A stretch of DNA of 64,000 nucleotides from Paeniglutamicibacter kerguelensis. GTDB taxonomy: Bacteria; Actinomycetota; Actinomycetes; Actinomycetales; Micrococcaceae. The notes under the pieces are model-generated. The model did no database searches and had not been told where the DNA came from. It saw only the letters and a program-made list of their open reading frames with translations. Where the stretch lies: the NCBI RefSeq assembly GCF_017876535.1, contig NZ_JAGIOF010000001.1:3906001-3970000 (forward strand), read 5' to 3'. The first letter of the stretch is position 1. Each line of letters starts with the position of its first letter. Shown piece by piece: positions 1,507 to 19,817 of the stretch. The translations under genes and the position numbers were made by a program.

Positions 1507-1550
1507 GCTAGGACGCTAGGACGCTAGGACGCTAGGACGCTAGGACGCTA
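1507..1550. repeat. 8-bp tandem repeat, 5.5 copies
   Basis: The unit GCTAGGAC is repeated perfectly from 1507, 1515, 1523, 1531 and 1539, followed by half a unit (GCTA, 1547-1550). The last half-unit contains the stop codon (TAG on the minus strand) of the lipoprotein gene ending at 1548, so the array lies directly 3' of that gene. Copy-number change would not alter the protein, because the stop is in the gene-proximal unit. Confidence 0.95.
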
Positions 1551-1964
1551 GCATTTCAGGTCTTCGCCGACAGCCTCCTGCGCCGCCTCGACCTTGGCGA
1601 CATCATCTGACAGCGATGCCTTGGCTTCGGGAACCGTCATGCTCGAACTCACGTCGTTTACCGCCTTGTTCAGGTCATTCCAGGCGGTGTCGAGCTCGCC
1701 CTTGCGATCCTCGGCGACATTTTCCATCGACTTTCGCAGGTCGTCGTAGGTGGAGGCGACCTTGTCGCGCGCCGCCTGGATATCGCCCACGGTGGAGCCG
1801 CTGTCCAGGGAGGTTTTCACCTCGGCGACGGAACCGACAAATGCCGCGTATGATTCGCAAGCGGCGGCCGTGTTTTCCTCCGGCGTGGAACTGCACGCCG
1901 CCAGGGAAACCCCCAAAAGGGCGGTCAAGGTCAGGGACGTGAACATCTTGGTGGTGTTGCGCAT
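1548..1964 (-). CDS. Small secreted lipoprotein, function unknown
   Basis: A 138-residue protein with a typical lipoprotein signal: MRNTTK basic start, hydrophobic core, and lipobox LAAC with the lipidated Cys at residue 24. The mature part is acidic and helical with Lys/Glu/Ala-rich heptad-like stretches and ends in Cys (EDLKC). Start choice is firm: AAGGAG lies seven bases before ATG at 1964, while longer upstream frames include the signal only internally. It is probably anchored on the outer face of the membrane. No family is recognised. Confidence 0.85.
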   Translation of the reverse strand: MRNTTKMFTSLTLTALLGVSLAACSSTPEENTAAACESYAAFVGSVAEVKTSLDSGSTVGDIQAARDKVASTYDDLRKSMENVAEDRKGELDTAWNDLNKAVNDVSSSMTVPEAKASLSDDVAKVEAAQEAVGEDLKC

Positions 1965-2225
1965 GAAAGGCTCCTTAGGGTCGTGCTTGGTGTCGGATAC
2001 GGTAGCCCCTTTGGCGGGGCTTGCTGCTGGAACAGCTCCTCTATACCCGCAGGCGGGAAGTTCCACGGCTTCGGTCTCAAAGGCTTGCGTGTCCTCCGCT
2101 TTCATTCATGGTTACGGTTGTCCCCGTCGTCTCGGGTCTTGTCTAATCGTCCATTCCCTTTCGAAGTAAGACATCACCTTTCTCGGATGATGCCGCACTT
2201 CGTACGCGTCGCGACGCAGCGGCGC

Positions 2226-6347: not shown

Positions 6348-6367
6348 GCACACCCATACAGGGTGAG
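6348..6367 (-). promoter_or_regulatory. Regulon palindrome, site D (upstream of arylsulfatase-SulP)
   Basis: On the minus strand the site reads CTCACCCTGTATGGGTGTGC. It matches the consensus YTCACCC-N6-GGTGATG shared by five other sites in this region, with a degenerate right end. It lies 117 bases upstream of the arylsulfatase start. Assignment to the LAL regulator is inference. Confidence 0.55.
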
Positions 6368-6487
6368 GTCGATGTTGGAATTCAACGAATCAACCAAAAT
6401 GGTGGCGGCATTCTCCCCTCACCCGCAGACTGCCGGCATCGCGCCTGGCCCGAGCCGCATCAAGAATTGTTTGCCGACGCCGAACGG

Positions 6488-6589
6488 GTGTGGACACGGA
6501 CACCGCTGGACGCAAATTCGACGGGCTACAACGCGGAATACACATTCGGCGACGGCTGGCCCCGAGACGACTTCGAACTCCTCGAGTGA
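6488..6589 (+). pseudogene. Possible 3' remnant of a lost gene
   Basis: In one frame the DNA before the stop at 6587-6589 reads with strong protein character (…TGYNAEYTFGDGWPRDDFELLE), and the frame stays open leftwards to about 6290. No plausible start or ribosome site precedes it, and upstream composition is poor. A hairpin terminator follows 44 bases later, as expected for the end of a real gene. I read this as the decayed tail of a deleted gene; the family is not recognised. A GTG at 6488 would give only 33 residues. Confidence 0.35.
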
Positions 6590-6633
6590 CCGGCCGGCCG
6601 GCCCATGGGCGGCATGCGGGATCCGGAAAGCGG

Positions 6634-6656
6634 AACCCCTTCTCCCGAGGGGTTTT
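6634..6656 (+). terminator. Rho-independent terminator
   Basis: The 7-bp stem AACCCCT/AGGGGTT (6634-6640 with 6648-6654), loop TCTCCCG, is followed by TTTT. It has no intact gene in front of it now, which supports a gene loss just upstream. Confidence 0.65.
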
Positions 6657-7019
6657 GCTCGTTTCGTGGCGTGCCGGTCGAGACCTGGTTCATCGAACCA
6701 CCGGGACCGCACGTTCACTCGAATGCGGCCGGAGAACTCAATGCTCGGAGCCGTTCTCCGAATGAAACGCCACAGGCACCAGCTGGCGGCCGCTTTCCCT
6801 GGACCTGCGCCACCCGGCAGACGCGGGAAGACACGTCTGGAACTTCAGGAGAATTTTCGGTGTTCCCCGGTTGCGAAACCCGCACTCACTGGGATTCCCG
6901 CATTTTTGGAACCGGATTACAAGCGTCTAAAGACCCTAGAGAAACCTGCTGCCGATCGGTTACGCTGACGCTGCCCACGCTATGCCGCCTAAGTGCTCCC
7001 ATTTGGAGGTCGATGAAGG

Positions 7020-9581
7020 ATGCAAGAAGAGCAACAACTGAAGACAATTGTCAACCCATTGCCGGGAGTTCCGCCGCAAGGTGCCCGATTCGTAAGCCGA
7101 CCACGGCTCGATGCAACACTCGACGAGCTCCTCGCCGGTTCACACCGGGCGATCACCATCTGGAGCGCTGCCGGGTCGGGCAAGACGACACTGCTTGCGC
7201 ATTGGGCGCGCCGGCTAGCGGCGGCAGGCCTCAAGGTCACCTGGATCATGGAAGAGGACCTGGGGCAGGTACCCGAAATCCTTGAGGACATCATCGAAAC
7301 CGACACCGAGAGGCTCATGCACACCCATCCCCCCAGACGCATCGTGATCATCGATGATATCCATTTGCTCGCGGCCGGCAGGGCCAAATCCACAGCGGCA
7401 GCACTCGTCAAGACGCTGCCTTCTTTGGCGGGGTTCATCGTCGCCGGGCGCTACCAACCCTTTGCCGCGCTTAGGGACTTGCAAGCGGCCGGGGTACTGG
7501 CGGAATTGCGCACTGCCGATCTTTCCTTCACCCGTGCGGAGCTGGACGTATTGGTCGAGCACCACGAATGCGAACTCGACGATTCCGCTGCCCAGGTGCT
7601 GCTGCGCAGAACGGCCGGATGGGCGACGGCATTGACCCTCGCCGTTCCGTGGTTGAAGGGCAGGCACAATGCGAATGCGGCTGTCACCGGGTTCGATGGC
7701 GACCATCGCGCTGTTGCCGATTACTTGGTGAGCGAGGTTCTGGAAAGTTTGAGCGTTGAGGAGCGATCCGTGCTCTCCCGGACGGCCATCAGAAGTGACG
7801 TGCCCTTCGAACTGGCCTTTCACTTGGCAGGCATGCCAAACACCGGCGAGTTGCTGCACCATGTAGCCCAACGGAATTCATTGCTGGTCGAGGACTCGGA
7901 TGGCTACCACTACCACCCGGTGCTGCTCAGCTTCCTGCAAGCCGATGCCCGCCGCAAGGACGCGGAGGCCTTCGCTGCGGCCCATGCGAGCGCCTGCAGA
8001 TGGTTCAGCGCCCAGGAAGACGCCACGAATGCGCTGGAGGAGGCCATCGCTTCTGCCCGGCCGACCACCATCCAGCAGACCATCGAGCATTTCGGCCTGG
8101 AACTCATCCTCGCCGGCGAAACCGACCTTGTAACCCGCGCCGCGGCCACCCTGCCTGCACACTGCGCACCCGTGGCGCTCTTGGCAACGAACCTCCTGCT
8201 CGAGGCGCCGTACTTCGCCGACGTGACGCGGACGTCCCATTTGTTCCTAAAAGCCTTAAAACATGACACAACGGACGCGGCAACACAGGACCAATGGCTG
8301 GCCGCCGCCATCGCCGTCCACTGCCTGGACGGCCGCTCGAAACTACAGCTCGCCGAGCGAGTCGAACGCCTGCGAAAAGACGACATCTCGGCCCTGCGCA
8401 GGGAGAGCCTTGCCCTGGACCTACTGGCCGAAACGGCGGAGGCCTGGTGCATCGGCCAGCTGGGCGAGTCTGCGGACGGACTGCGGATGCTGCGTGAGGT
8501 GGGAATCAGCGCCGACCGTGCCGGCTACACCTGGCTGACATTGCTCGCGACCGAGCTGGGGGCGCAGGTGGCAGCTCTTTCGGGGCAGTGGGAGAAGGCC
8601 GCCGCGTTCGAAGACGAAATCACCGTCCGGGTTCTGGACGGCCCGCGCACCCAGCACGACTGGGTGCGTTCGGCCGCGACCATCATGTCTGCGGCACGGT
8701 CGTTCAGGCGCTGCGAGCAGGTGCCCCTCGAAGAGCTCGACGAGATCATCACCGCCGATGCGTACCATGCGACCCACGGCACGCTGGTGCCGGCCATCGC
8801 CCTGCGCAGCTTCCCCGATTTGGATTCGGAAGCCAATCCGCGGGTCTCGCTGGAAACGGTGGACCGCCTGCTGCGCGACCACGGCGACCAGTATCCCAGG
8901 GTGTTCGCCCCGGCCGCCCTGCGTGTGGCCAGCCTGCACCTGAAGCTGGACGGACGATCCGAAGCGCTGGAGAGCGCCGAAGAAATCTTCAATGCATTCG
9001 GGGAAAACACCCTGGAATCGGAAACCGTTCGATTCGCACTCGCGTTTCCGTCGCGAACCGGCGATGCCGCGGAAGAACAGCTTCTTTCTGCGCTCGACCG
9101 CAGGGCGCAGACTTGGCATGCGGGCGCCCCCGTTGGAGCATGGATCTTGCTGGCCCGCGCCGCCGAGCTCCAGGGGCGCGGCAGCGAGGCGGACCTGCGA
9201 CTGGCCAAGGCACTAAAGCTGGCGCACCGGTTCGATGCGGTGCAGCCGTTCGCGGCACGCGGCGGTGAGGGCGCTGCCATGCTCGGCGCGCGGATCGGCC
9301 GCCTCGGCCACCTGGACGAATTCGCTGCCCACATACATCGCCGGGTGCGGATGATCCTTCCTGAAGAGCCCGTCGGCGCTACCAGCGGCGAGACCTTGAC
9401 ACCGCGGGAACATGAGATCCTCAAGGAATTGCCGGTGCATCAAAGTGTTGCCGAAATCGCCCGCAAACTGACGCTGAGCGTGAATACCGTGAAGACGCAT
9501 TTGCGCAGCATCTACCAGAAGCTCGGCGTTTCCGACCGCAGCGAAGCCGTCTCAGTTGCCCAAAACAGGGGGCTGCTCTGA
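7020..9581 (+). CDS. LAL-type LuxR-family transcriptional regulator (MalT-like ATPase)
   Basis: An 853-residue regulator. The Walker A loop SAAGSGKTT is at residues 49-57, and a Walker B-like run IVIIDDIHLLAAG is near 103-115, making an STAND/MalT-type NTPase. A helical, TPR-like middle (about 300-780) follows. The C-terminal LuxR helix-turn-helix (PF00196, about 793-853) carries LTPREHEILKEL, SVAEIARKLTLSVNTVKTHLRSIYQKLGV. Such proteins are ATP-dependent activators that respond to a bound inducer. GGAGGT sits nine bases before the ATG. Its position between the sulfatase unit and several units sharing one palindrome makes it the best candidate for their regulator; that link is inference. Confidence 0.93.
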   Translation: MQEEQQLKTIVNPLPGVPPQGARFVSRPRLDATLDELLAGSHRAITIWSAAGSGKTTLLAHWARRLAAAGLKVTWIMEEDLGQVPEILEDIIETDTERLMHTHPPRRIVIIDDIHLLAAGRAKSTAAALVKTLPSLAGFIVAGRYQPFAALRDLQAAGVLAELRTADLSFTRAELDVLVEHHECELDDSAAQVLLRRTAGWATALTLAVPWLKGRHNANAAVTGFDGDHRAVADYLVSEVLESLSVEERSVLSRTAIRSDVPFELAFHLAGMPNTGELLHHVAQRNSLLVEDSDGYHYHPVLLSFLQADARRKDAEAFAAAHASACRWFSAQEDATNALEEAIASARPTTIQQTIEHFGLELILAGETDLVTRAAATLPAHCAPVALLATNLLLEAPYFADVTRTSHLFLKALKHDTTDAATQDQWLAAAIAVHCLDGRSKLQLAERVERLRKDDISALRRESLALDLLAETAEAWCIGQLGESADGLRMLREVGISADRAGYTWLTLLATELGAQVAALSGQWEKAAAFEDEITVRVLDGPRTQHDWVRSAATIMSAARSFRRCEQVPLEELDEIITADAYHATHGTLVPAIALRSFPDLDSEANPRVSLETVDRLLRDHGDQYPRVFAPAALRVASLHLKLDGRSEALESAEEIFNAFGENTLESETVRFALAFPSRTGDAAEEQLLSALDRRAQTWHAGAPVGAWILLARAAELQGRGSEADLRLAKALKLAHRFDAVQPFAARGGEGAAMLGARIGRLGHLDEFAAHIHRRVRMILPEEPVGATSGETLTPREHEILKELPVHQSVAEIARKLTLSVNTVKTHLRSIYQKLGVSDRSEAVSVAQNRGLL

Positions 9582-9614
9582 CCCGTTCCCTTGCTTTCGC
9601 GAAGGTCACCGGGG

Positions 9615-9634
9615 TTCACCCGCGCGAGGTGATG
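9615..9634 (+). promoter_or_regulatory. Regulon palindrome, site A (upstream of the 9722 small gene)
   Basis: TTCACCCGCGCGAGGTGATG matches YTCACCC-N6-GGTGATG exactly and lies 87 bases before the start codon at 9722 and 33 bases after the LAL gene stop. Confidence 0.6.
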
Positions 9635-9721
9635 TGTGGGCGCTGGCGCCGCGGGAAGATCGAAGAGTCTTCTGGAACCGGGGGATGAAAAGGCTCCTTG
9701 CACCCGGAGGTGGTTGTGGTC

Positions 9722-9931
9722 ATGAATCGCTACGAAATCCGACTCCCTTACGCCCTGTCGGATAGTCTTGCGGCGGCGTTCCCGGAGTTGGACGCCGTGC
9801 AGATCACCCCATCGACGACCGTACTCACCGGCATGCTCCATGACCAAGCCGAACTCCACGGGATCCTGGCCCGGATCGCGGACATGGGCTTGGAACTCGC
9901 CGAAGTCCATGTGCGCAAGGAATCCTCCTAG
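9722..9931 (+). CDS. Small protein of unknown family, 3' end altered by IS insertion
   Basis: A 69-residue protein starting MNRYEIRLPYALSDSL, with GGAGGT ten bases before the ATG. Alternating beta/alpha predictions (strand at 2-8, helix 9-17, strands near 20-30, helix 35-48, strand 50-57) resemble a small ferredoxin-like or ACT-like fold, but I recognise no family. The stop codon TAG (9929-9931) is formed by the first bases of the left inverted repeat of the IS982-type element, so the original C-terminus has been replaced. It lies behind regulon site A and directly after the LAL regulator, which suggests a role in the same circuit. Confidence 0.6.
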   Translation: MNRYEIRLPYALSDSLAAAFPELDAVQITPSTTVLTGMLHDQAELHGILARIADMGLELAEVHVRKESS

Positions 9932-10962
9932 ATGAGTAATTCCAAGGGATGACATCGCGGGCAAGGGTGTCCAAAATCGAGGTGCAACAACCAACATGTG
10001 AACCTGGAGAGTTCCGATGGACAACGACCTGGACACCCTTGCCACAGCCTTCTATGTCGCAGCGGATGACTTGTTGAAGGACCATCCGGAGCGGGTTCCC
10101 TACCGTCCTCGGATCGGGATCAGCCCGCGTATTTCGGACGCCGAACCGATGACGCTGGCCTTGATGCAGGCGTTTCTGGGCTTCGTGTCCCAGGCCCGCT
10201 GGCTGCGCCATGCCCGGGCACAATTCGAGGGCATGTTTCCCTGCCTGCCGGGCCAGACGGGCTACAACAAGCGTCTGCGCAGGCTTTATCCGACGATGAC
10301 CTGGCTCATGGGCACCCTGGTGCGGGCCGCCGATGTCGGTGCGGATGATGTGTGGGTGGTTGATTCGACCCCGGTAGAGTGCGGGCGTTCCCGCGAGACG
10401 GCGCAGCGCTCGGACCTGGCGGGGTGGGCGGAGTACGGGTATTGCGCCTCGCATTCGCGTTGGTTCTGGGGGTTTCGCCTGCACTTGGCCTGCACCCTGC
10501 AGGGGCTTCCGGTCGGCTTCGCGCTGACCGGCGCGAAGGCCGGTGAGCGCCAGATGTTCCTCGACATCCTCGACGGCACCGAAACCATGAACCAGCTGCA
10601 GGAGGGCGGGATCCGCCAGCTCCTGATCGGGGACAGAGAGTACTACGGCGCCGACTTTGAGGACACCGTGGATGCGGCCGGCATCGAGATGCTGCGCCCG
10701 GGCCCGCAAGGGCGAGAAACTCCGGCCCGGTTCCCGGTTCGTCAAGCCCTTGCGGCAGGTCATAGAATCCATCCACGACACCCTCAAGGGGCAGCTTGAC
10801 CCGGAACGGCACGGAGGACGCACCCCGGCGGGTGTCATCACCCGCGTGGTGCAGCGGCTGCTGGCGATGACGGCGGCGATCTGGCACAACGAGAACATCG
10901 GTGCCGCGATCCGCCACTCATTGGTGGTTTACGACCAACTAAGCCTTGGAATTACTCATCTA
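9929..10962 (+). mobile_element. IS982-family insertion sequence
   Basis: The element is about 1.03 kb, bounded by 19-bp perfect inverted repeats (TAGATGAGTAATTCCAAGG at 9929-9947 and its reverse complement at 10944-10962). It carries one transposase frame, broken by a frameshift. No obvious target-site duplication flanks it (…AATCCTCC on the left, GCGGCTCC… on the right), so the insertion may be old or rearranged. The left end supplies the stop codon of the preceding gene. Confidence 0.88.
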
Positions 10963-11001
10963 GCGGCTCCGAAGCCCTCGGTATGGCCTCAATGCCAATG
11001 A
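10017..11001 (+). pseudogene. IS982-family transposase, frameshifted
   Basis: The first frame from ATG 10017 gives MDNDLDTLATAFYVAADDLL… with DDE-type features WVVDSTPVECGRSRE and LLIGDREYYGAD. It then goes out of frame near 10697-10705; as read it continues off-frame to 10799. The second frame resumes with RKGEKLRPGSRF, VIESIHDTLKGQLDPERHGGRT and ends in the family-typical SLVVYDQLSLG. One extra G in CCGGGCCCGCAAG would explain the break. The second frame has no stop before the right inverted repeat and runs out into host DNA to 11001. The enzyme is presumably inactive unless a ribosomal slip restores it. Confidence 0.85.
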
Positions 11002-11050
11002 CGTTGAAGAGACTACACTTCCGGGACGTCCGCAACAGCCACGGAAATGG

Positions 11051-12169
11051 CTATGGCGACTCTTCGTCGCCTCTGCGTTCCCCGCGGCGTGTCCGCCGGG
11101 CTTCCTTCGCCACTGCGTCGTCCTCCATGAGCAAACGGCGAGTCTCAGTGACGTCCCCGATGGCCGGGCGCCACAGCCGGACTTTCGGATCCGAATCAAC
11201 CAGCACGGCACGGAAAATCAACGTCAGCGGGATGGCCAGAATGGCACCGATTGGCCCGAACACGACGGCCCAGAACAGTACCGAGAAGAACGTGAGTGAC
11301 TGGCTCAGCGCCACCGCGTTGCCGACGACCCGCGGCTGGATGATGGACTGAACCACGCCGTTGATCAGCCCGTACGCGATGACGACGGCAATCATTGTTG
11401 ACCAGCCGCCGACAAAGAACCCGAACACCATGGGCGGGATGATCGCCAGGAAATATCCGACGTTCGGAATGAAACTGCACAGGAACGCCAGCAGGCCCCA
11501 GAGAATGGCGGCGGGAACGTGAAGGACGAAAAGCACCAAGGTATTCAGCACGCCTTGGACGACGCCGAGCACCGTGGTGACGACCATGTAGCGCCGCACG
11601 TTGGATGCGTAGCTCGTCAACGCAACGACGAGGTCTTTTTGCGTTACGGCCAGTTGCCGCAGGATCGTGGGAACGTATACGGCATCCGCCGCCATCAGGA
11701 TCAACATGGTCAGGATGATCACCAGGGAACCCGTGATGCTGAAGACGCTTCCGAAGAGCCCGGTTGCCAATGCCACAAGTTTGCCCGGGTCGATGCCCTT
11801 GATAATGGCTTGGGTCTGTTCCGTGCCGATCCCGATGCTGCCCAGCCATTCGGTGACCACCGTGCCGAGTTGGGCGAGCTGGCCGGCAAACTGCGGCAGC
11901 ATCGTGACGAACTGGGCGAAGGCGATGATCAACGCAAAGATGAACCCCGCCAGCAGCAGGAAGACGACAAGGATGACGGATCCGGTGGCGAGCCCGTGCG
12001 GAACCCCCCGCTTCTCCATCGCCACCCGGACCGGGTGGGCGCAAATGGTCAGGATCAGCGTCAGGATGACCGGGGCTAGGATGTGCCGGATCGAGCTCAT
12101 CCCGATTGCTGCGACCGTCGCGGCCGCGAGCGCGAGCAAGATCATCGTTCCTCGACGGGTGCTTTCCAC
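11051..12169 (-). CDS. AI-2E-family (PF01594) membrane transporter
   Basis: A 372-residue multi-pass protein with about eight hydrophobic segments, the AI-2E/TqsA pattern with a long central helix pair, and the conserved late segment LAFLCSFIPNVGYFLAIIPP then PRVVGNAVALSQSLTFFSVLFW. A charged arginine-rich tail closes it. Members export AI-2 or act as Na+/H+ antiporters; the substrate here is unknown. I chose GTG at 12169 because GGAGGAGG lies six bases before it; the ATG at 12184 contains that ribosome site inside its own codons. Regulon palindrome E lies 95 bases upstream, between this gene and the divergent GAP-type gene. Confidence 0.85.
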   Translation of the reverse strand: MESTRRGTMILLALAAATVAAIGMSSIRHILAPVILTLILTICAHPVRVAMEKRGVPHGLATGSVILVVFLLLAGFIFALIIAFAQFVTMLPQFAGQLAQLGTVVTEWLGSIGIGTEQTQAIIKGIDPGKLVALATGLFGSVFSITGSLVIILTMLILMAADAVYVPTILRQLAVTQKDLVVALTSYASNVRRYMVVTTVLGVVQGVLNTLVLFVLHVPAAILWGLLAFLCSFIPNVGYFLAIIPPMVFGFFVGGWSTMIAVVIAYGLINGVVQSIIQPRVVGNAVALSQSLTFFSVLFWAVVFGPIGAILAIPLTLIFRAVLVDSDPKVRLWRPAIGDVTETRRLLMEDDAVAKEARRTRRGERRGDEESP

Positions 12170-12264
12170 AGTAGCCTCCTCCATTGGCGGGCAACGGTTC
12201 GCGCGGTTCCGGGTGCCCCGAAGACCGGTCCGGCCCAAACGCTACGTGGTGCCTGATCCCAAAA

Positions 12265-12284
12265 CATCATCTTGTCTGGGTGAG
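12265..12284 (-). promoter_or_regulatory. Regulon palindrome, site E (between AI-2E and GAP-type genes)
   Basis: The minus strand reads CTCACCCAGACAAGATGATG, one or two changes from the consensus YTCACCC-N6-GGTGATG. It lies 95 bases upstream of the AI-2E-type gene and 65 bases before the divergent gene at 12350, so it could serve both. Confidence 0.5.
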
Positions 12285-12314
12285 ACATCGCGGCGACGGC
12301 CCTTTTAGGGTTTA

Positions 12315-12332
12315 CATACGCCTGTATGCGTA
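12315..12332 (+). promoter_or_regulatory. Short palindrome before the GAP-type gene
   Basis: Two overlapping inverted repeats (CATAC-GCCT-GTATG and TACGC-N6-GCGTA) lie 18-35 bases before the ATG at 12350. It could be an operator or a leader hairpin. There is no second copy elsewhere in the window. Confidence 0.3.
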
Positions 12333-12349
12333 CAAGGGGAGCTGCCTGC

Positions 12350-13024
12350 ATGATCATGATCCTTCAAGCCATTGGGCACTTGCTGCCGCTGGCCGTGGCG
12401 ATGGCGATCAGTTCCGTGCCCATCACCGCAGCGCTGCTAATCCTGCTCTCCCCGAACCCCGGGCGTTCACCCATCGCGTACCTGTCCGGCTGGATCCTGG
12501 GAATCATTGTGGTGGTGGTGCTCTTCGCGCTCGGGGCGGCCACGCTCCCCGCCCACGTGGACCTCCAACCGGTGTTCCTCGTGGGCATCTTCCTGATCGC
12601 CATCGGCCTCACGATGGAGGCCTTCGCGCTGGTGCTGTGGCGGCGCTCCGATCGGACGGCCGCCAGCGAACTGCCAAAATGGCTGCGGGCAGTGGGCGCG
12701 GTGCGGCCTTGGCAGGCGTTCGGCTTCGGGTTCGCACTGAACCTCCGACCCAAGTCCCTGCTGATCGGTGTCGCCGCGGGCGTTGTGCTTACGGCCCACC
12801 CGCTCACGGTCGCAGACGCGACGATTGCCGTTGCGGTGTACACCGCACTGTCCGCGTCAACCGTCGGCATCCCCGTGGTGTTCGCCTTCGTGAGCCCCGA
12901 ACGCGCCGAACCGCACCTGGTGCTGGTGCACGACTGGATTATCGCGAACAACCGCGTCATCACCATCCTGGTCATGGTCCTCATCGGATTTGTCATCATC
13001 GGCACCGGAATGACCATGCTGTAG
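12350..13024 (+). CDS. GAP-family (SfLAP-like, PF11139) membrane protein
   Basis: A 224-residue integral membrane protein with six predicted hydrophobic segments, starting MIMILQAIGHLLPLAVAMAISSVPITAALLIL. The pattern LLPLAVAMAISSVPI…LLSPN…GWILGI and FALNLRPKSLLIG matches the Sap/sulfolipid-1-addressing family, which includes mycobacterial GAP proteins needed for cell-envelope lipid translocation and is related to LysE exporters. AGGGGAG lies nine bases before the ATG. A paralogue (15914-16585) follows the second SulP gene. The substrate is unknown; envelope lipid or sulfated-compound export is only suggested by the family. Confidence 0.8.
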   Translation: MIMILQAIGHLLPLAVAMAISSVPITAALLILLSPNPGRSPIAYLSGWILGIIVVVVLFALGAATLPAHVDLQPVFLVGIFLIAIGLTMEAFALVLWRRSDRTAASELPKWLRAVGAVRPWQAFGFGFALNLRPKSLLIGVAAGVVLTAHPLTVADATIAVAVYTALSASTVGIPVVFAFVSPERAEPHLVLVHDWIIANNRVITILVMVLIGFVIIGTGMTML

Positions 13025-13085
13025 GACGGCGCCAAACCACGTACCCAAGGCCGGGTGCTGCACCGTCGATGCGGCGAAGCAACCT

Positions 13086-14039
13086 TTAGGGCCTGGCGCA
13101 GCGGAACCCGATGTGGCTTGTCGCCGAGTCTTCGGTCTGCGGCGAGCGCGCCGCCGGGCGGTAGCGCAGGCAGTACTCGGGTGCGCACAGGTGGGAGCCG
13201 CCCTTCAGGACCCGGCGCGGCGCGGCGGAACCCGGTTCCGCGCTCTGCGCGGCGAGCCGCGAATCCTGCGAGCCGCAACTGCAACCGCCTGCCGGTGCGG
13301 CCGGCCCGGTCCGGGTCGCCTCATGCGAGCTGGTGTAGTAATCGGCCGTCCACTCCCACACGTTGCCGATGCAGTCGTACAACCCGTACCCGTTGGCGGG
13401 GAATGCCCCAACCGGGGAGGTGCCGGCCCATCCGGCCGAGCCGGTGTTCAGGTACGGGAACCGGCCGTGCCACGTGTTGGCCATGGCGGTCCCGCCCGGG
13501 TCGCGCTGCCTGCCCCACACGTAGGGGTCCGGGGCGGCTCCGCCGGAGGCCGCATACTCGTGTTCCGCTTCGGTGGGCAGCCGGGCCCCAGCCCATTGGG
13601 CGTAGCTGAGCGCGTCGGCATAGGAAACCTGCACCACGGGGTGGTTTTCCTTGCCAGCCAGGTCGCTACCGGGTCCCAGCGGGTGGCGCCATTGCGCTCC
13701 GGGCACCCACGCCCACCACTGTTGCCAGTCCCCCAGGTCCACCGGCCCGCCCGTGGGGGTGAACACCAGAGAACCCGGGGCGCGTTCGGCCTCGTCCAGG
13801 TGCGGGAAATCGACGGCGGACAGGGCCCGCTCCGCGACCGTCACATAGCCTGTCGCCTCGATGAATGCGGCGAACTGCGCGTTGGTCGTCGGGCCGGCCG
13901 CAATCTGGAAGCCGCCGACGGACCGTTCGTGCCGGGGGGCCTCGTCGGGGTAGAAGTCATGGGAACCCATCTGGAAGGTCCCGGCCGGAATCGTTTTCCA
14001 TTCGGGGTGCCCCGCGGTGTTGGTCGCTGCTTCCGGCAT
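13086..14039 (-). CDS. Formylglycine-generating enzyme (sulfatase-maturating oxidase)
   Basis: A 317-residue SUMF1/FGE (PF03781) protein. It begins with WKTIPAGTFQMGSHDFYPDEAPRH, continues with the core ARLPTEAEHEYAASGG and GYGLYDCIGNVWEW, and has the catalytic pair Cys285/Cys290 in GGSHLCAPEYCLRYRPAAR, the CxxxxC arrangement of copper-dependent aerobic FGEs. It oxidises the Cys of CxPxR motifs to formylglycine; the sulfatase at 3867-6230 has such a motif at Cys94. I took ATG 14039 (AGGGGA nine bases upstream); a GTG two codons earlier is possible. It is divergent from the SulP gene, with palindrome B between them. Confidence 0.93.
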   Translation of the reverse strand: MPEAATNTAGHPEWKTIPAGTFQMGSHDFYPDEAPRHERSVGGFQIAAGPTTNAQFAAFIEATGYVTVAERALSAVDFPHLDEAERAPGSLVFTPTGGPVDLGDWQQWWAWVPGAQWRHPLGPGSDLAGKENHPVVQVSYADALSYAQWAGARLPTEAEHEYAASGGAAPDPYVWGRQRDPGGTAMANTWHGRFPYLNTGSAGWAGTSPVGAFPANGYGLYDCIGNVWEWTADYYTSSHEATRTGPAAPAGGCSCGSQDSRLAAQSAEPGSAAPRRVLKGGSHLCAPEYCLRYRPAARSPQTEDSATSHIGFRCARP

Positions 14040-14155
14040 CTTCACAATTCCCCTACCCTCGCTTATGCCCTGCCTTCCGAACCATTCTGCCCTGCCCGTG
14101 GGGCGGCGAGGGTCATCCGTTACAGATGAAGCCGGCTGATCGCCATCTACCGCGG

Positions 14156-14175
14156 TTCACCCGGGCGGGGTGATG
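14156..14175 (+). promoter_or_regulatory. Regulon palindrome, site B (between FGE and SulP-GAP)
   Basis: TTCACCCGGGCGGGGTGATG is an exact consensus match, 59 bases before the SulP start at 14235 and 116 bases before the divergent FGE start. The downstream sequence up to the ATG is nearly duplicated behind site C (16634). Confidence 0.65.
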
Positions 14176-14234
14176 CCTCCCCGATCTGCCTCGAATGACC
14201 ATTGGTGCAGACAACCACATCTCCGGAGGCAAAC

Positions 14235-15911
14235 ATGCAGCGACCCCTGGCCGGGCTCACACGGGGCAACCTCGTGCAAGAGCTGGTCGCCGGCGTGACG
14301 CTGCTCGCCATCGCGATTCCGCTGAACATCGGCTACGCGCAGATTGCCGGGTTGCCGCCCACCGCGGGCCTGTACGCGTTGGTCCTCCCGGCCATCGTGT
14401 ACGCGCTGACGGTGTCCTCGCGACAGCTGGTGGCTTCGCCGGATGCTGCTGCCGCGGCCCTCGTCGCGTCCTCGATCGGAGGGCTCGCTGTCGCCGGAAG
14501 CGCGGAGTATTCAACCCTTGCCTTCGCCCAGGCGATCATCATCGGCATCATGTTCATCCTGCTGTCGGTGTTCAAGCTCGGGTTCTTGGCCAATTTCCTT
14601 TCCAAGCCGATTCTCGTCGGGTTCGTCGGCGGCCTGGCCCTGGACATCATGGTCAGCCAGATCGCAAAGATGCTGGGCGTGCACATCAACTCGGGCGGAG
14701 AGTTCGTGGAAAAGGTCGGCGACCTGCTCTCGGGTCTCGGCACCGCCAATGTGTACTCGATGCTGATCGCCGCGGGCTCCGTCGCCGTGCTGTTGGGCGG
14801 GCGCAAGCTCTTGGCTGCGGTGCCGTGGGCGCTCGTGGTTCTCGTCGTCTCCACCGTGGTCGTGGTCCTCACCAACGCACAGGCGGCAGGTGTCAACGTG
14901 CTGGGGGAAGTCCCGGCCGGACCGCCGCAGCTGTCCTGGCCCGTGCTCGACTGGTCGATGTGGATTGCGCTCATCCCCGCGGCCGCGGCCCTGACGATGG
15001 TCACGACGGCCGAAGGCCTGCTGGTCTCGCGATCCTACGGCGAGAAACGGGACTATGAGACCAATCCCAATCGCGACCTGTTCGCATTCGGCGTCGGCAA
15101 CATCGCCGCCGGGGCCTCGGCGAGCTTCACATTGGGTTCTTCAACCTCCCGCACCGCAGCCATGGACCAGGCAGGCTCCCGCACGCAGCTGCCCACCCTG
15201 GTGATGGCCGCCGGGACGCTGCTGCTGCTGGTGTTCGGCACGGCGCTGCTGGCCGACATCCCCTCGCCGGCGATCGGCGCTGTCGTTGGAGTGGCAATCA
15301 TTCCGCTGCTGGGCATCAAGGAATTCAGGGAACTGTGGCGCCAAGACCGCTTCGAATTCATCATCGGCGCCGTCTGTTTCCTCACGACCCTCCTCGTCGG
15401 GTCCATCATCGGCATCCTCGTCGCGTTCGTACTCGCCTTGGTCAACCTCGCCAAACGCGCCTCCAACCCGGCCATCGACGTGCTGAAGGCATCCGGGGAA
15501 CCCGGTGAGTCATTGCTGGAGGACGCATCCGCCGGCTCCATGACCACTCCCGGCGTGCTCGTCATCCGCCTGGCCGCTCCACTGTTCTTCGCCAACGGCG
15601 ACGTGTTCGTCCAGGCGGCCAGGCGTGCCGTGCTGGCGGCCGACCCCGATAAGGTGGACCACCTGGTGATCGACATGGAAGCCGTGACAGACATCGACGT
15701 GACAGGTGCCGAATCATTCACGGCACTCCAGAACTGGCTCGCCGGACAAGACGTGGAGTTGAGCTTCAGCCGCGTGCGCCCGGAAGCCCGGGAGCGCCTC
15801 ACCCTTCTGGGCCTGCTCGACAAGCAGCGGGTTTTCCCGACCAATCGCTCCGCCATCGCGGCGCTGTCGACGAGTGCCGCAGTCTCCGGCCCGGCCAACG
15901 AAGAAGGATGA
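14235..15911 (+). CDS. SulP-family permease with STAS domain (second copy)
   Basis: A 558-residue SulP/SLC26 protein. MQRPLAGLTRGNLVQELVAGVTLLAIAIPLNIGYAQIAGLPP starts the transporter domain (about 15-400), followed by a STAS domain (about 435-545) with LVIDMEAVTDIDVTGAESFTALQNWL, carrying the typical Asp/Thr anti-sigma-antagonist-like loop. It is clearly diverged from the copy at 2226-3854. GGAGG stands five bases before ATG 14235. It overlaps or abuts the GAP-type gene (ATGA junction at 15908-15911), so the two are translationally coupled. Likely an inorganic anion transporter; the substrate is unproven. Confidence 0.87.
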   Translation: MQRPLAGLTRGNLVQELVAGVTLLAIAIPLNIGYAQIAGLPPTAGLYALVLPAIVYALTVSSRQLVASPDAAAAALVASSIGGLAVAGSAEYSTLAFAQAIIIGIMFILLSVFKLGFLANFLSKPILVGFVGGLALDIMVSQIAKMLGVHINSGGEFVEKVGDLLSGLGTANVYSMLIAAGSVAVLLGGRKLLAAVPWALVVLVVSTVVVVLTNAQAAGVNVLGEVPAGPPQLSWPVLDWSMWIALIPAAAALTMVTTAEGLLVSRSYGEKRDYETNPNRDLFAFGVGNIAAGASASFTLGSSTSRTAAMDQAGSRTQLPTLVMAAGTLLLLVFGTALLADIPSPAIGAVVGVAIIPLLGIKEFRELWRQDRFEFIIGAVCFLTTLLVGSIIGILVAFVLALVNLAKRASNPAIDVLKASGEPGESLLEDASAGSMTTPGVLVIRLAAPLFFANGDVFVQAARRAVLAADPDKVDHLVIDMEAVTDIDVTGAESFTALQNWLAGQDVELSFSRVRPEARERLTLLGLLDKQRVFPTNRSAIAALSTSAAVSGPANEEG

Positions 15912-15913
15912 CC

Positions 15914-16585
15914 ATGGTTCCCGTCATCGGGGAAATACTCCCGCTCGCTGTCGGCATTGCGATCAGCCCGTTGCCGGTCATTGCCGCGATCCTCATGCTT
16001 CTCTCCCCCAAGGCCCGGGTCACCTCCGTCGGGTTCCTGCTCGGCTGGGTTGTCGGCATCATAGTAGCCGTCACCGTCTTCACGCTGCTCTCCTCAATCC
16101 TGCCTGAGCAGGATCCGGAGGCTTCCAAACCCGTCCAAGGAATCATCCAGCTCCTGCTCGGGGCAGGGTTGCTCCTGCTGGCGATCGGCCAATGGCGCAA
16201 ACGGCCCAAGCCGGGCGAGGACCCCGCCCTGCCCAAGTGGATGCAGGCAATCGACAAGGTCACCTTCATCACCGCGCTCGGGTTGGGATTCCTGCTCTCG
16301 GCCCTGAATCCCAAGAACCTGATCATGGCGGCCGGCGCCGGGCTGGACATCGGCAGTGCCGAGCTGTCCACCGGGGCCGTCGTCCTCGTGGTTGCAATCT
16401 TCACGGTGATCGCGGCGTCAACCGTCATGGTCCCCGTGCTCGGCTACCTGATTGCCGCCGAGAAACTCCGCAGACCGCTAGATTCATTGCGCACCTGGCT
16501 CGCCAAGGAAAATGCGCTCATCATGGCAATCCTTTTGCTGCTGATCGGGGTGTCGATGATCGGCAAGGGAATCGGGCATTTCTAG
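15914..16585 (+). CDS. GAP-family (SfLAP-like) membrane protein (second copy)
   Basis: A 223-residue, six-segment membrane protein paralogous to the one at 12350: MVPVIGEILPLAVGIAISPLPVIAAILMLLSPK, later LPKWMQAIDKVTFITALGLGFLLSALNPKN. AGAAGG lies seven bases before ATG 15914; ATG 15908, overlapping the SulP stop, is possible but has its ribosome site directly against it. Translational coupling with SulP suggests that the two proteins work together, perhaps as a transporter and an accessory exporter. The role is unproven. Confidence 0.78.
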   Translation: MVPVIGEILPLAVGIAISPLPVIAAILMLLSPKARVTSVGFLLGWVVGIIVAVTVFTLLSSILPEQDPEASKPVQGIIQLLLGAGLLLLAIGQWRKRPKPGEDPALPKWMQAIDKVTFITALGLGFLLSALNPKNLIMAAGAGLDIGSAELSTGAVVLVVAIFTVIAASTVMVPVLGYLIAAEKLRRPLDSLRTWLAKENALIMAILLLLIGVSMIGKGIGHF

Positions 16586-16633
16586 ATACGAAACACGCCA
16601 CGCCACAGCCCGGCCCCGGGTCCGCCACTGAAG

Positions 16634-16653
16634 CTCACCCTGACAGGGTGATG
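16634..16653 (+). promoter_or_regulatory. Regulon palindrome, site C (before SulP-GAP relic and DUF6325-SHOCT)
   Basis: CTCACCCTGACAGGGTGATG is an exact consensus match and a near-perfect palindrome. The 60 bases that follow, up to ATG 16714, closely mirror those behind site B, including a shared ATTGGTGCAG and the CCCGGAGGCGAACATG ribosome site. Confidence 0.65.
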
Positions 16654-16713
16654 CTCGTCCAAGCGGCCGCGAAGGACTATTGGTGCAGGCAAGCACTTTT
16701 CCCGGAGGCGAAC

Positions 16714-16878
16714 ATGCAGCGACCCCTGGCAAGACTCACACGAGGCAGTCTCGTGCGGGCGCGGCTGACCCCACGCCCGAGATGGATGCAGCCGATTGAC
16801 AGGGGCACGGCAATCAAGGCGATTCCGTTGTCGTTCATCCAGGCCTCGTTAGGCAGCAACAGAAGCGGAAATTCCTAG
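16714..16878 (+). pseudogene. Fused relic of a third SulP-GAP gene pair
   Basis: The 54-codon frame begins MQRPLARLTRGSLV, nearly the same as the N-terminus of the SulP at 14235 (MQRPLAGLTRGNLV). It then turns into RPRWMQPIDRGTAIKAIPLSF, which aligns with the internal GAP-type segment LPKWMQAIDKVTFITALGLGF of the gene at 15914. So the 5' end of one SulP copy is joined to the middle of a GAP copy, and the rest has been lost. It ends 12 bases before the DUF6325-type gene. It keeps a good ribosome site and could still be translated as a leader peptide. Confidence 0.7.
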
Positions 16879-16890
16879 AAAGGAAATGCC

Positions 16891-17328
16891 ATGGGACAGT
16901 TCACATTTGGACCCGTCGAGCTCTACCTCATCGGGTTGGAGGGCAGCCGCCCCTCGGCGGGCGTGCTTGACGCTCTCGGGGAACTACTCGATGCGGGGCT
17001 CGTTCGGCTGCTGGACTTCGTGATCATTGCCAAGAGCGATGGCGGGGAAGTCTCGGTCACCGAGCTCGAGACCGGCGACGACGAATATGGACTGGCCGGC
17101 ACGGAAATGGCTGCGATCGGCATTGCCGGGGACGACGACATCGAAGAGCTCTCCGAGCTTGTCCCGCCGGGAAGCTCGGCGGCACTCGTCGTGTTGGAGC
17201 TCGCGTGGGCCAGGACCCTCAGCCAGCGGTTCGCCGCGTCCGGCGCTGAAGTGCTGAATGTCGAGCGCATCCCCGCCCCCGTTGTCAACGGCCTCGTTGA
17301 CGCCCTCCACGGTCTGAACGAAGAGTAA
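16891..17328 (+). CDS. DUF6325-type protein
   Basis: A 145-residue acidic protein: MGQFTFGPVELYLIGLEGSRPSAGVLDALGELLDAGLVRLLDFVIIAKSDGG, later IEELSELVPPGSSAALVVLELAWARTL. The pattern (beta strand, long helix, IDFVxIxK, PPGSSAAVxLxE) is that of DUF6325/DUF1269-like proteins, small soluble or membrane-associated proteins of unknown function in actinobacteria. AAAGGA lies six bases before the ATG. It is 12 bases from the SHOCT gene downstream, with which this family often pairs. Probably transcribed from the promoter behind site C. Confidence 0.75.
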   Translation: MGQFTFGPVELYLIGLEGSRPSAGVLDALGELLDAGLVRLLDFVIIAKSDGGEVSVTELETGDDEYGLAGTEMAAIGIAGDDDIEELSELVPPGSSAALVVLELAWARTLSQRFAASGAEVLNVERIPAPVVNGLVDALHGLNEE

Positions 17329-17340
17329 AGGAAAACCATC

Positions 17341-17697
17341 ATGCTAAGAAGAGGACGTCCGGGCCTCATCGGCCTGGCAGCTCGTACCGCTGTCGTCGCC
17401 GGCACCGCGACCGCAGTCCAAGGAGGTATGGCCAATCGCCAGCAGAGGAAGGCACAGTCCTCGTACGAGCAGGAACAGTACGAGGCGGCCCAGCAACAGG
17501 CCATGATGCAACAGGCGGCGCAGGATGCCGTGGCCCAGCAGCAAGCCGCCGCGCCTCCCCCACCGGCGGCGGCGCCCGCGGCGGCGGCACCGGGCATCGA
17601 CCTCATCGCCGAGTTGCAGAAGCTGGCCTCGCTCAAGGACGCGGGTGTACTCACCGATGCCGAGTTCACCGCGGCGAAGTCCAAATTGCTCGGCTGA
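17341..17697 (+). CDS. SHOCT-domain protein
   Basis: A 118-residue protein. An N-terminal MLRRGRPGLIGLAARTAVVAGTATAVQGG hydrophobic/glycine-rich stretch is followed by a Gln-rich linker (about 35-65), an Ala/Pro-rich segment, and a C-terminal SHOCT motif (DLIAELQKLASLKDAGVLTDAEFTAAKSKLL, the final 31 residues), a short oligomerisation or targeting motif. It starts 12 bases after the DUF6325-type gene and is followed by a strong terminator at 17838-17885. It may anchor or scaffold the partner at the membrane. Function unknown. Confidence 0.82.
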   Translation: MLRRGRPGLIGLAARTAVVAGTATAVQGGMANRQQRKAQSSYEQEQYEAAQQQAMMQQAAQDAVAQQQAAAPPPPAAAPAAAAPGIDLIAELQKLASLKDAGVLTDAEFTAAKSKLLG

Positions 17698-18109
17698 GAC
17701 GCCCGTCGGTGTTCGATTGGAAAAGCGGGAGTGAGGGCTGGCCAAACCAATCCTCCAGTTAATTCCGCTGGCTTTCGGTATCGGGTGCAGAACCCGCTCG
17801 CCGTCGTGGCGCTCGTGTCCTCCGTGTCTCGAAGCCTGCCAGGGCCCGAACGGCACTACACAGACAATGCCGTTCGGGCCCTGGCTCTTCTATGCGTTCG
17901 ACGTGAAAATCGTGCCCGAGTCGACCCCGAGACCTTCGTGGTGCGCCTGGTTCTGGGCGCGTTCCTAATCTTGGCGACGGTGTGGGCGTACCGGCGCGGT
18001 ACCGACACGTTGAGGGAAATTTCTATGCCCGCAACATCCATGGAGGTAGGCCCCGGAGACTGCGGCGAATGGCCGGCGTTGGGATCCAAAAACCCGACGC
18101 GACAATCGT
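17698..18109. other. Intergenic stretch with a terminator
   Basis: It contains the hairpin at 17838-17885. Between 17900 and 18109 one plus frame shows a short hydrophobic run (FVVRLVLGAFLILATVWAYRRG) that could be the relic of a membrane protein, but it has no start signal and runs into the end of the opposite gene. I do not call a gene. Confidence 0.5.
17838..17885 (+). terminator. Strong hairpin terminator
   Basis: The 18-bp perfect stem (GCCAGGGCCCGAACGGCA, 17838-17855, with 17868-17885) has a 12-base loop and lies 140 bases after the SHOCT gene stop. The T-tract is weak (TCTTCT). Confidence 0.75.
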
Positions 18110-19096
18110 CTAGACCGGGGTGCGAACCTTCCGCACCCGTTGGATGATCGCCGGGATCAGCGCACCAAACAGCAATGCAAGGGAGATGCCGAGCAGAGTC
18201 TCCATGGTGCGTTCCACAAAACGATCGCCCGGGGACTCGGTTGTGTCTGCCTGCATGATGAACGTGAGCACGATGAATGACGCAAACCCCGGCGTCACGT
18301 ACCAGCGGCTCGCCGTGGTCGCGGCCATCGCTGCAACGACCACGCCAACAACCAATGCGGTACCCAAGCCCTGCGTGCTGAACACCGCGAACGCGGCCGC
18401 GGCAAGCGAGCCCAGGAGAACTGATGCAGCACGGCCAATGCTTCTGAGCACGAGCTGGGATCTCGCGGGCCGCATCACGAGCAGCACGGCTCCCGTCGGC
18501 CAGCCAACGTGTTCAAGGTCAAGGAGGTAGCCGATCGCCGCGGCACTGGCAGCCGCTAGCCCCAGGAGCGTCCCGTAGACGAACATGGTGTTCAACGGCA
18601 ATTTCGGAGGCGGAACGGGTGCCGTTGGCGGCACCCGTTCGGGCCAGAGCAACGACACCAGCCACGCATAGACGGATCCAGCAACCATGAGCCCACCAAG
18701 AATCACGGCCGTTCCAAAACTGTGGATGCTGAGCCCAATACCCGTGAGCGGGAGCGCGAGAAACAGGGTGAGCGTACCGAAACGGCTTGCGCGCGACCAA
18801 ACGCTCGTAAGCACGGCCAGAACAAATATTGCAGGCACCGCGACCGCGGGAACGTTTGTGAGGAGCGATCCTATTTGCAAGGCTACTGCGCACAGGACTC
18901 CGACGATTATGATCGTATGTCTCTCCTGGCGGACGCCAGGTAGCTTGAAGGCGGCCGCTGGCAAGACGCCGAGCGCCAAGGCCAGTCCCGCCATGGGATT
19001 AGTCGGGATGACGAGTGCTGCAGGCAAAGCCATGACGAGACCGTAAATGAACAGGGGCCAATCCCAGGTGATCCCGCGGGGTGCACGTGCCTTCAT
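18110..19096 (-). CDS. FUSC-family (aromatic acid exporter-like) membrane protein
   Basis: A 328-residue protein with two blocks of hydrophobic segments (about 12-150 and 180-300). In the second block, VGWPTGAVLLVMRPARSQLVLRSIGRAASVLLGSLAAAA matches the FUSC_2 (PF13515) core, which has a conserved Arg-rich turn. FUSC proteins include fusaric acid and aromatic carboxylate exporters. It is shorter than full-length YccS/AaeB, so it is probably the membrane module alone. I chose ATG 19096 (MKARAPRGITWDWPLF); a GTG four codons earlier is possible. Palindrome F lies 101 bases upstream, linking it to the same putative regulon. Confidence 0.75.
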   Translation of the reverse strand: MKARAPRGITWDWPLFIYGLVMALPAALVIPTNPMAGLALALGVLPAAAFKLPGVRQERHTIIIVGVLCAVALQIGSLLTNVPAVAVPAIFVLAVLTSVWSRASRFGTLTLFLALPLTGIGLSIHSFGTAVILGGLMVAGSVYAWLVSLLWPERVPPTAPVPPPKLPLNTMFVYGTLLGLAAASAAAIGYLLDLEHVGWPTGAVLLVMRPARSQLVLRSIGRAASVLLGSLAAAAFAVFSTQGLGTALVVGVVVAAMAATTASRWYVTPGFASFIVLTFIMQADTTESPGDRFVERTMETLLGISLALLFGALIPAIIQRVRKVRTPV

Positions 19097-19197
19097 GGCG
19101 CACCCCACACGGGCAAGAGGCAGCGTGCCGGCGTGTTTGCGCGTGTTCGGGAGAGAACCATCACGGCTTTGACGCTAGCGTTCACCTACAGGATTTT

Positions 19198-19217
19198 CAT
19201 CGCCCGCAAAGGGTGAA
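19198..19217 (-). promoter_or_regulatory. Regulon palindrome, site F (upstream of FUSC gene)
   Basis: The minus strand reads TTCACCCTTTGCGGGCGATG, one mismatch from the consensus right half (GGCGATG for GGTGATG), 101 bases before the FUSC start. Confidence 0.5.
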
Positions 19218-19403: not shown

Positions 19404-19817
19404 GTGGAATTTTGGTCATCTTTCTGGAATATCATTTGGTTTTTCATCTGGGCGTTTGTTTTCATCGCCTACCTGATGGCGCTCTTCTCGATCATCGCCG
19501 ATCTCTTTCGAGACCGAGAGCTCAATGGATGGTGGAAGGCGGTATGGCTCATCACTATGGTCTTCATCCCGTTCCTGACCGCGCTGGTCTACCTGATCTT
19601 CCGCGGCAAGGGCATGGCGGAACGAAACTACAAGAATGCCGTTGACAAAACCGTGGCCACCGAAGACTACATCCGCAGCCTTGCGCAGGTGAGCCCGAGC
19701 GACGAGATTGTCAAGGCCAAGGCGCTCCTTGAGAGCGGAACCATCACCGCCGACGAGTACGAAAATCTGAAGCAGCGTGCCATGGGCCGCATAAACGCGA
19801 CGACCGCCGACGTATGA
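19404..19817 (+). CDS. Small membrane protein with N-terminal PLDc_N-like and C-terminal SHOCT motifs
   Basis: A 137-residue protein. Two transmembrane helices (about 5-30 and 45-65: FWNIIWFFIWAFVFIAYLMALF and WKAVWLITMVFIPFLTALVYL) frame DLFRDRELNGWWKA, as in cardiolipinase_N/PLDc_N domain proteins. A C-terminal SHOCT-like helix pair follows (IVKAKALLESGTITADEYENLKQRA). I chose GTG 19404 because AAGGA lies eight bases before it; the ATG at 19344 would add 20 basic residues without a ribosome site. Function unknown; such proteins are typical of actinobacterial membrane-stress loci. Confidence 0.75.
   Translation: MEFWSSFWNIIWFFIWAFVFIAYLMALFSIIADLFRDRELNGWWKAVWLITMVFIPFLTALVYLIFRGKGMAERNYKNAVDKTVATEDYIRSLAQVSPSDEIVKAKALLESGTITADEYENLKQRAMGRINATTADV

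Follow-up and report, generated by a model that had tools for sequence, protein, structure and literature searches.

The window analysed here, a stretch of 64,000 nucleotides from the actinobacterium Paeniglutamicibacter kerguelensis (contig NZ_JAGIOF010000001.1, positions 3,906,001 to 3,970,000), holds between its positions 1548 and 19817 a cluster of genes for a sulfatase, a sulfatase maturase of the formylglycine-generating enzyme type (FGE), SulP permeases, and several membrane or lipoprotein-like proteins. At 7020, within the cluster, lies the gene of a LAL regulator, a member of a class of MalT-like, ATP-binding activators with a LuxR-type helix-turn-helix (HTH), and the intergenic regions carry copies of a short palindrome (Table 1). 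The sequence comparisons described below make it likely that these palindromes are operators of a LAL activator, the 7020 protein being the one that most likely acts on the units between 1548 and 19817.

The first-pass annotation of this DNA had described six copies of a 20-bp palindrome, YTCACCC-N6-GGTGATG, and all six lie where it placed them: those at 9615, 14156 and 16634 match the pattern exactly, those at 12265 and 19198 carry one change, and that at 6348 carries three. The palindrome is real, but its symmetric core, TCACCC-N5-GGGTGA, spans only 17 bp; the operator consensus is TCAYCC-N5-GGRTGA, to which two window sites conform exactly and six with one departure. With up to three mismatches, the longer pattern occurs 30 times in the window against 13.75 expected (standard deviation 4.07), a count reached in none of 100 shuffles, and these matches are scattered across the entire window. 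For a weight matrix, we took 39 sites, each with no more than one mismatch, that lie close to LAL genes in other genera (loci L114-L134) and not deep in genes; the matrix, like alignment A1, draws in part on the LAL loci of G044, G116 and G362, genomes chosen for having paired sites. Its eight best matches in the window, in descending order 16635, 14157, 9616, 2174, 12267, 6350, 19200 and 14113, score from 25.3 down to 14.1 bits (the first seven each at least 15.96) and are all intergenic, and the next matches, at 13.1 bits or less, lie within genes. Among 50 Markov-1 sequences of the same length (64 kb), top scores had a mean of 12.1 (maximum 22.6) and runner-up scores one of 9.8. Two of the eight, at 2174-2190 and 14113-14129, add to the six beyond which no others had been noticed. 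The 122 bp from sites 14156/14157 and 16634/16635 onward form a duplication (79.5% identity), and for this reason the two sites count as one origin and the notion of six independent origins was dropped. The distance of 59-117 bp first given between sites and start codons fails for the DUF6325 gene, which begins 239 bp past 16635; only the relic of a duplicated SulP start region (16652-16757), which leaves a long leader between this operator and DUF6325, lies that close.

Table 1. Genes and predicted operators of the cluster (window coordinates). Gene labels come from Pfam and NCBIfam searches; bits refer to the other-genera matrix and departures to TCAYCC-N5-GGRTGA; the 90th percentile of the background -10-like score is 3.2; numbers of loci refer to the target count described in the text.
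Feature	Position	Strand	Remarks
Small lipoprotein-like protein	1548..1964	-	Label from N-terminus; no Pfam match; target cluster: 21 genes, 18 loci (with window)
Operator	2174..2190	-	One departure; 17.7 bits, fourth best; 209 bp upstream of lipoprotein gene; -10-like score 3.94 toward gene
SulP permease with STAS domain	2226..3854	-	PF00916, PF01740; 12 bp after sulfatase gene
Sulfatase	3867..6230	-	PF00884, E 1e-61 (longer open reading frame start); contains CSPTR; cluster targeted in 5 loci, among them the window and Mycolicibacterium peregrinum L257
Operator	6350..6366		Precedes sulfatase; one departure; 16.7 bits; -10 score 1.18, below background 90th percentile
LAL regulator, 853 amino acids	7020..9581	+	GSGKTT Walker A; C-terminal LuxR HTH, PF00196, E 1e-14
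Operator	9616..9632	+	Just 3' of LAL gene, before 71-amino-acid gene; 19.2 bits; -10-like score 5.37
71-amino-acid protein, small family	9716..9931	+	No Pfam match; cluster is target in 4 loci, window included
AI-2E family transporter	11051..12169	-	PF01594; cluster is target in 6 loci, window included
Operator	12267..12283		Divergent AI-2E/SfLAP promoter region; one departure; 17.0 bits; -10 score 3.43 (+), 2.71 (-)
SfLAP/GAP membrane protein	12350..13024	+	PF11139; SfLAP cluster is target in 4 loci, window included
FGE-like protein (sulfatase maturase)	13086..14045	-	PF03781, E 9e-75
Operator	14113..14129	-	FGE side, 67 bp from FGE start, 44 bp from 14157; one departure; 14.1 bits; -10 score 4.52 toward FGE
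Operator	14157..14173	+	Exact; precedes SulP; 22.4 bits; -10 score 3.68
SulP permease with STAS domain	14235..15911	+	PF00916, PF01740
Second SfLAP/GAP protein	15914..16585	+	PF11139
Operator	16635..16651	+	Exact; SulP relic 3', DUF6325 start 239 bp on; 25.3 bits; -10 score 3.77
DUF6325 protein	16891..17328	+	PF19850; commonest target cluster, 29 loci, window included
SHOCT protein	17341..17697	+	PF09851
FUSC-family membrane protein	18110..19096	-	PF13515
Operator	19200..19216		Between FUSC and PLDc_N/SHOCT genes; one departure; 15.96 bits; -10 scores 2.15/1.25
PLDc_N/SHOCT small membrane protein	19404..19817	+	PF13396; PF09851 just under Pfam cut-off; target cluster: 26 genes, 24 loci (with window)

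The same operator recurs beside LAL genes of other actinobacteria. Profile A2 was applied to named genomes and the best 80 matches were kept, giving 79 LAL loci in Arthrobacter, Cellulomonas, Microbacterium, Mycolicibacterium, Gordonia, Actinoplanes, Dactylosporangium, Lentzea, Nitriliruptoraceae and others. Of these 79 loci, 60 contain TCAYCC-N5-GGRTGA, with 113 occurrences in total; the thirteen other spacers (0-4 and 6-13) yield 18 sites combined, and the reversed pattern occurs once over all spacers and never at N5. A profile of 22 LALs was also used on 395 genomes of the family, with kinship uncorrected in the counts and the tallies of sites against LALs compiled by hand from the respective listings. 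LALs at E<=1e-50 were found in 76 of these genomes. Exact sites are present in 30 of the 34 genomes with a LAL at E<=1e-120 versus 75 of the 361 others (on average 2.74 versus 0.27 sites), and two or more in 22 of 34 versus 11 of 361; at E<=1e-50 the comparison is 37 of 76 versus 68 of 319. The four LAL genomes of the 34 that lack an exact site are three with an arginine-type recognition helix, discussed below, and G112, which has one-mismatch sites beside its LAL. Site places were listed for 38 genomes, 19 of which have a LAL at E<=1e-50, and an exact site lies within approximately 10 kb of it in 17 of these 19 (judged by eye; the exceptions are G346 and G090). The genome scan that had been proposed as a check thus speaks for the regulon, LAL genomes being far richer in sites and the sites lying upstream of related genes in other genera. 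In three relatives (L220, L229, L233), a LAL of this family also has an Lsr2-like gene nearby (Pfam-tested in L229 only).

The placement of the sites points to a promoter function. A set of 140 loci, of which L139-L157 were chosen for having sites and in which near-identical strains persist after removal of identical flanks, holds 191 distinct sites, eight of them deep in genes; among the 178 with two neighbours, 84 lie between divergent and 92 between co-directional genes, and 2 lie in convergent regions, which make up 13% of background intergenic bases. The motif ANNNT follows the site at a distance of 23 bases in 84 of the 206 flanks that face a target (39 at offset 24, with a median of 6 over offsets) and in 6 of the 78 that face away; TANNNT occurs 13 times at offset 22 and no more than 3 times elsewhere. 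Within the window, the -10 score passes on one side of six of the eight sites, or in 6 of 12 flanks (16635+, 14157+, 9616+, 2174-, 12267+ and 14113-). This fixed -10 distance and the avoidance of convergent regions would fit an activator bound at -35, and from the ANNNT at offset 23 the start point is predicted to lie 34-35 bases after the site.

Further evidence comes from the co-variation of the operator with the recognition helix of the LAL. Of 79 loci whose regulator has a lysine helix (SVNTVKTH type), 59 contain CC/GG sites and none contains CA/TG sites; of four loci with an arginine helix (SVNTVRTHQR), three contain CA/TG sites, of the type TCATCA-N5-TGATGA, and none contains CC/GG sites. 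Sites of either kind are absent for thirteen LALs with RTHT or RSHT helices. An earlier reading of the helix, over 100 of 137 loci, agrees with this result. A tree, whose window row was labelled manually, places the Arg clade within the Lys/CC rows and shows a single origin of the CA label; a search of the genus of G036 for further Arg-helix LALs gave none new. The four Arg-helix clusters (L126, L127, L129, L330), in which labels were assigned partly by eye, combine the changed palindrome with DUF1254/DUF1214 proteins; three of them hold SulP and SfLAP genes with FGE-like starts, an ATPase-like gene adjoins the LAL in three, and DUF6325- and SHOCT-like genes are found in most.

LALs very probably bind the TCAYCC-N5-GGRTGA palindrome, a conclusion drawn from the matrix, the spacer control, the orientation of the sites, the -10 offset, the helix/operator variant, and the match with an Actinoplanes regulator (see below). 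A pair of LuxR-type HTH domains would read the palindrome where it overlaps the -35 region, and RNA polymerase, using a weak -10 element (xAnnnT) that needs the activator, would start approximately 34-35 bases beyond it; the 853-amino-acid LAL encoded at 7020 would most likely drive in this manner the divergent and co-directional units between 1548 and 19817. As for the signal, the gene content prompts the guess of a membrane/ion or nutrient state. On a wider scale we lean towards a phylum-wide LAL stimulon of the Actinomycetota, in which one ancestral operator code (TCAYCC-N5-GGRTGA with a Lys helix) would have been kept across LALs that are approximately 20% identical, together with recurrent orphan membrane or envelope targets (DUF6325, PLDc_N/SHOCT, lipoprotein, EgtC-like amidotransferase, DUF1269, ClC, AI-2E), lineage-specific branches of sulfatase, FGE, SulP and SfLAP genes, and a single clade in which helix (Lys to Arg) and operator (to TCATCA-N5-TGATGA) both changed.

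Several observations weigh against this interpretation. The consensus was first derived from the window, before relatives were searched, and it is for this reason that the argument leans on the controls with other spacers and with the reversed pattern. An exact site is missing from 20 of the 79 Lys-helix loci, and helices were unreadable in 33 of 129 loci; the fourth Arg-helix locus, L330, found regardless of sites, has only mixed half-sites (TCATCC-N5-TGATGA and TCACCA-N5-AGATGA in a divergent promoter), and the helix/operator switch counts as one event because it has a single origin on the tree. Two window sites, 6350 and 19200, are the weakest and have no good -10 score in any direction. 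Elsewhere in the genome, three sites have no convincing target: 911275 lies within a gene, 1492769 is hairpin-like, and the third is 3526923. Lastly, among the 361 family genomes without a strong LAL match, 75 carry an exact site and 11 carry two or more; two of the 11 (G176, G280) have a weaker LAL match, the site lies within a gene in six of ten single-site genomes inspected (L159, L161-L169), and the loci L234, L235 and L237, taken from the multi-site genomes, comprise two extended hairpins (L235, L237) and one isolated site.

The genes behind the sites would make up the predicted regulon. In the target count over the 140 loci, the window is counted wherever it belongs to a cluster, 14 sites (in the window and in L071, L074, L075, L076 and L079) were assigned manually, and each cluster is named after one or a few Pfam-tested members. 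The commonest targets are DUF6325 (29 loci), PLDc_N/SHOCT (24), the LAL itself (19) and the lipoprotein (18), followed by the EgtC-like amidotransferase (13), DUF1269 (12), ClC (9), DUF7144 (8), DUF308 (7), AI-2E and alkyl sulfatase (6 each), arylsulfatase and a coiled-coil protein (5 each), the 71-amino-acid family, SfLAP and GH15 (4 each), and SulP, FGE and cardiolipin synthase (2 each). Among mycobacterial LAL loci with a site, a sulfatase adjoins in L257 and L260 and an alkyl sulfatase in L256, and sulfatase or FGE genes lie farther off in L260, L262 and L293; the link to sulfatases is therefore not private to this genome. Sulfatase, FGE and SulP are among the targets, but the description of the cluster as a sulfatase/envelope regulon is too narrow, since DUF6325, PLDc_N/SHOCT, lipoprotein, amidotransferase, DUF1269 and ClC are each commoner than either sulfatase family, and a purely sulfatase-specific regulon was rejected on this count.

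Which LAL acts on the window is a separate question. The 7020 protein carries SVNTVKTHLRSIYQKLG in a C-terminal GerE HTH (PF00196, 53.9 bits, cut-off 23.5) and GSGKTT as its N-terminal ATP-binding motif, its nSTAND Pfam match lying below the cut-off; it falls outside the MalT equivalog (NCBIfam NF003420, 159.8 bits, cut-off 537). Its relatives at E<=1e-40 are confined to 2 of the 395 family genomes, its own included. The sole close one, in G162 (43% identity), is separated by a two-mismatch site from a PLDc_N/SHOCT-type gene; a single-protein scan of the named genomes gave no relative, and among genus-mates the best match outside its own genome is only 26% identical, over residues 60-346. The genome encodes a second LAL (C1:1641303; L071:11303-13831), also with a Lys helix, which is adjoined by two one-mismatch sites in a cluster with amidotransferase, lipoprotein-like and PLDc_N/SHOCT-like genes.

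It is conceivable, though rather unlikely, that the window sites are LAL-bound mainly by this second LAL, or by both, the cluster being part of a shared regulon of which 7020 is not the main regulator. Helix and adjoining sites are as for 7020, and relatives of the second LAL are found at E<=1e-60 in 19 of the 395 genomes, its own included, with an intergenic site (at most one mismatch) in 12 of the 18 neighbourhoods fetched, the others being L120, L121, L123, L126, L127 and L129; against this, 7020 sits within the most site-rich cluster seen in the genome, and its G162 relative has a comparable neighbour and site. Comparative support for a LAL-bound regulon is strong at the level of the class, and 7020 need not be the sole binder, since the second LAL has a site-bearing cluster of its own; 7020 is the best candidate regulator of the window sites, which the second LAL may share. 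An unlinked regulator that binds the palindrome, with the LAL as merely one of its targets, is improbable: the LAL gene is indeed a target in 19 loci, but the number of sites tracks the presence of LALs, the operator variant tracks their recognition helix, and a deletion in Actinoplanes shows LAL dependence (main text of PMC7567727). Very improbable is the notion of transcription terminators or other hairpins, to which the extended hairpins among exact matches (1492769 here; L235 and L237 in non-LAL genomes) and the several sites that closely follow a LAL stop codon lend some colour; the 84 sites between divergent starts, the near-absence from convergent regions and the fixed -10 distance led to its rejection. 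Chance can practically be set aside as well, even in a GC-rich genome and with a duplication that holds two of the six sites: one random 64-kb sequence reached 22.6 bits, but eight top matches fall here in one 17-kb stretch, and the other-genera matrix and the spacer and reversed-pattern controls speak against it.

With 7020 retained as the most likely activator of the cluster, its genes add some detail. The 12-bp gap suggests that the sulfatase at 3867 and the SulP gene at 2226 probably form an operon, and the CSPTR of this sulfatase fits CxPxR, the motif converted by FGE. An insertion element (9932-10959) lies at the end of the 71-amino-acid gene, between it and the AI-2E gene; by eye, its ends are inverted and CTAG is duplicated at the target (9928-9931 and 10960-10963). 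Its transposase frame (10017-10799, DDE_Tnp_1) is apparently shortened, and a frame that starts alike is present at L084:18279-19187. The interval from the sulfatase promoter to the LAL gene (6400-7000, approximately 600 bases) holds no called gene, and an Rfam search of window positions 1-25000, this gap included, gave no match.

Beyond the cluster, the exact core palindrome occurs seven times in the 4.8 Mb of this genome, and its reverse never. Sites (in genome coordinates) precede the genes of a PLDc_N/SHOCT-like protein (776266), a lipoprotein-like protein (1980437; a SHOCT-like gene comes next), a ClC channel (1845651), and an M24 aminopeptidase (2485627; likewise in G392); those at 1021648 (coiled-coil protein) and 1378385 (alkyl sulfatase) lie approximately 470 to 900 bp before genes. 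The PLDc_N/SHOCT-like, lipoprotein and ClC genes would be scattered members driven by 7020 or by the second LAL. The ClC channel (L072:8054-10123), with an exact operator upstream, has a YrhK-like C-terminal domain. Two near-identical copies of a CMD-family gene (L081:5609 and L082:5637) each have an exact palindrome approximately 105 bp upstream, and this duplicated unit may belong to the regulon.

These observations provide a predicted operator, and hence a predicted regulon, for a large class of actinobacterial LALs with mostly unknown targets. They would place the functionally uncharacterized DUF6325, SHOCT and related proteins in a single control circuit, to which a sulfatase and its maturase are joined both here and in mycobacterial relatives, and they offer a candidate one-residue specificity switch in a LuxR-type helix that is open to test.

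A literature search found no paper on DUF6325, and passages of an Arthrobacter luxR paper (PMC9659744) hold nothing on this operator. The Streptomyces LAL SCO6993 binds short inverted repeats, as proposed here, but in passages of the report it is given no consensus and represses antibiotic activator genes (PMC9628970). E. coli MalT belongs to the same class of ATP-binding LAL activators, and its box, GGGGA(T/G)GAGG (quoted in passages of PMC7567727 and PMC9628970), offers a similar core half-site at -35; it differs in its target genes and in consisting of hexamer repeats rather than one N5 palindrome, and the NCBIfam MalT cut-off is missed here. In one open-access library, one direct parallel was found among the top matches listed, and this gene set and its breadth across the phylum were not. 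No such regulon had been known to the first-pass annotation, yet one with nearly this operator is described, in the main text of PMC7567727, for MalT (ACSP50_3915) of Actinoplanes sp. SE50/110. This "maltose-regulated large genomic region" is induced on maltose; its operator, TCATCC-N5-GGATGA, overlaps -35 and ends 34.4 +/- 1.0 nt before mapped starts, and deletion of malT lowers transcription of 42 of 51 genes (PMC7567727). That main text mentions neither SHOCT, sulfatase nor chloride, and the half-site here is mostly TCACCC. The region contains a class II amidotransferase and an aminopeptidase P, families that also stand behind sites here: the amidotransferase, one of the target families counted above, lies beside the second LAL and not in the window, and in Actinoplanes flavus (L298) LAL, site, amidotransferase and arginine deiminase are found together. 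As far as these searches go, the gene set and its breadth across the phylum would be new here; operator, promoter layout and a LAL regulon were already known from Actinoplanes, with which the present system shares, as far as that main text goes, a LAL encoded inside a large cluster, a gene order rearranged between species, the half-site type with its N5 spacer, and a similar distance to the transcription start, here predicted from sequence and there mapped.

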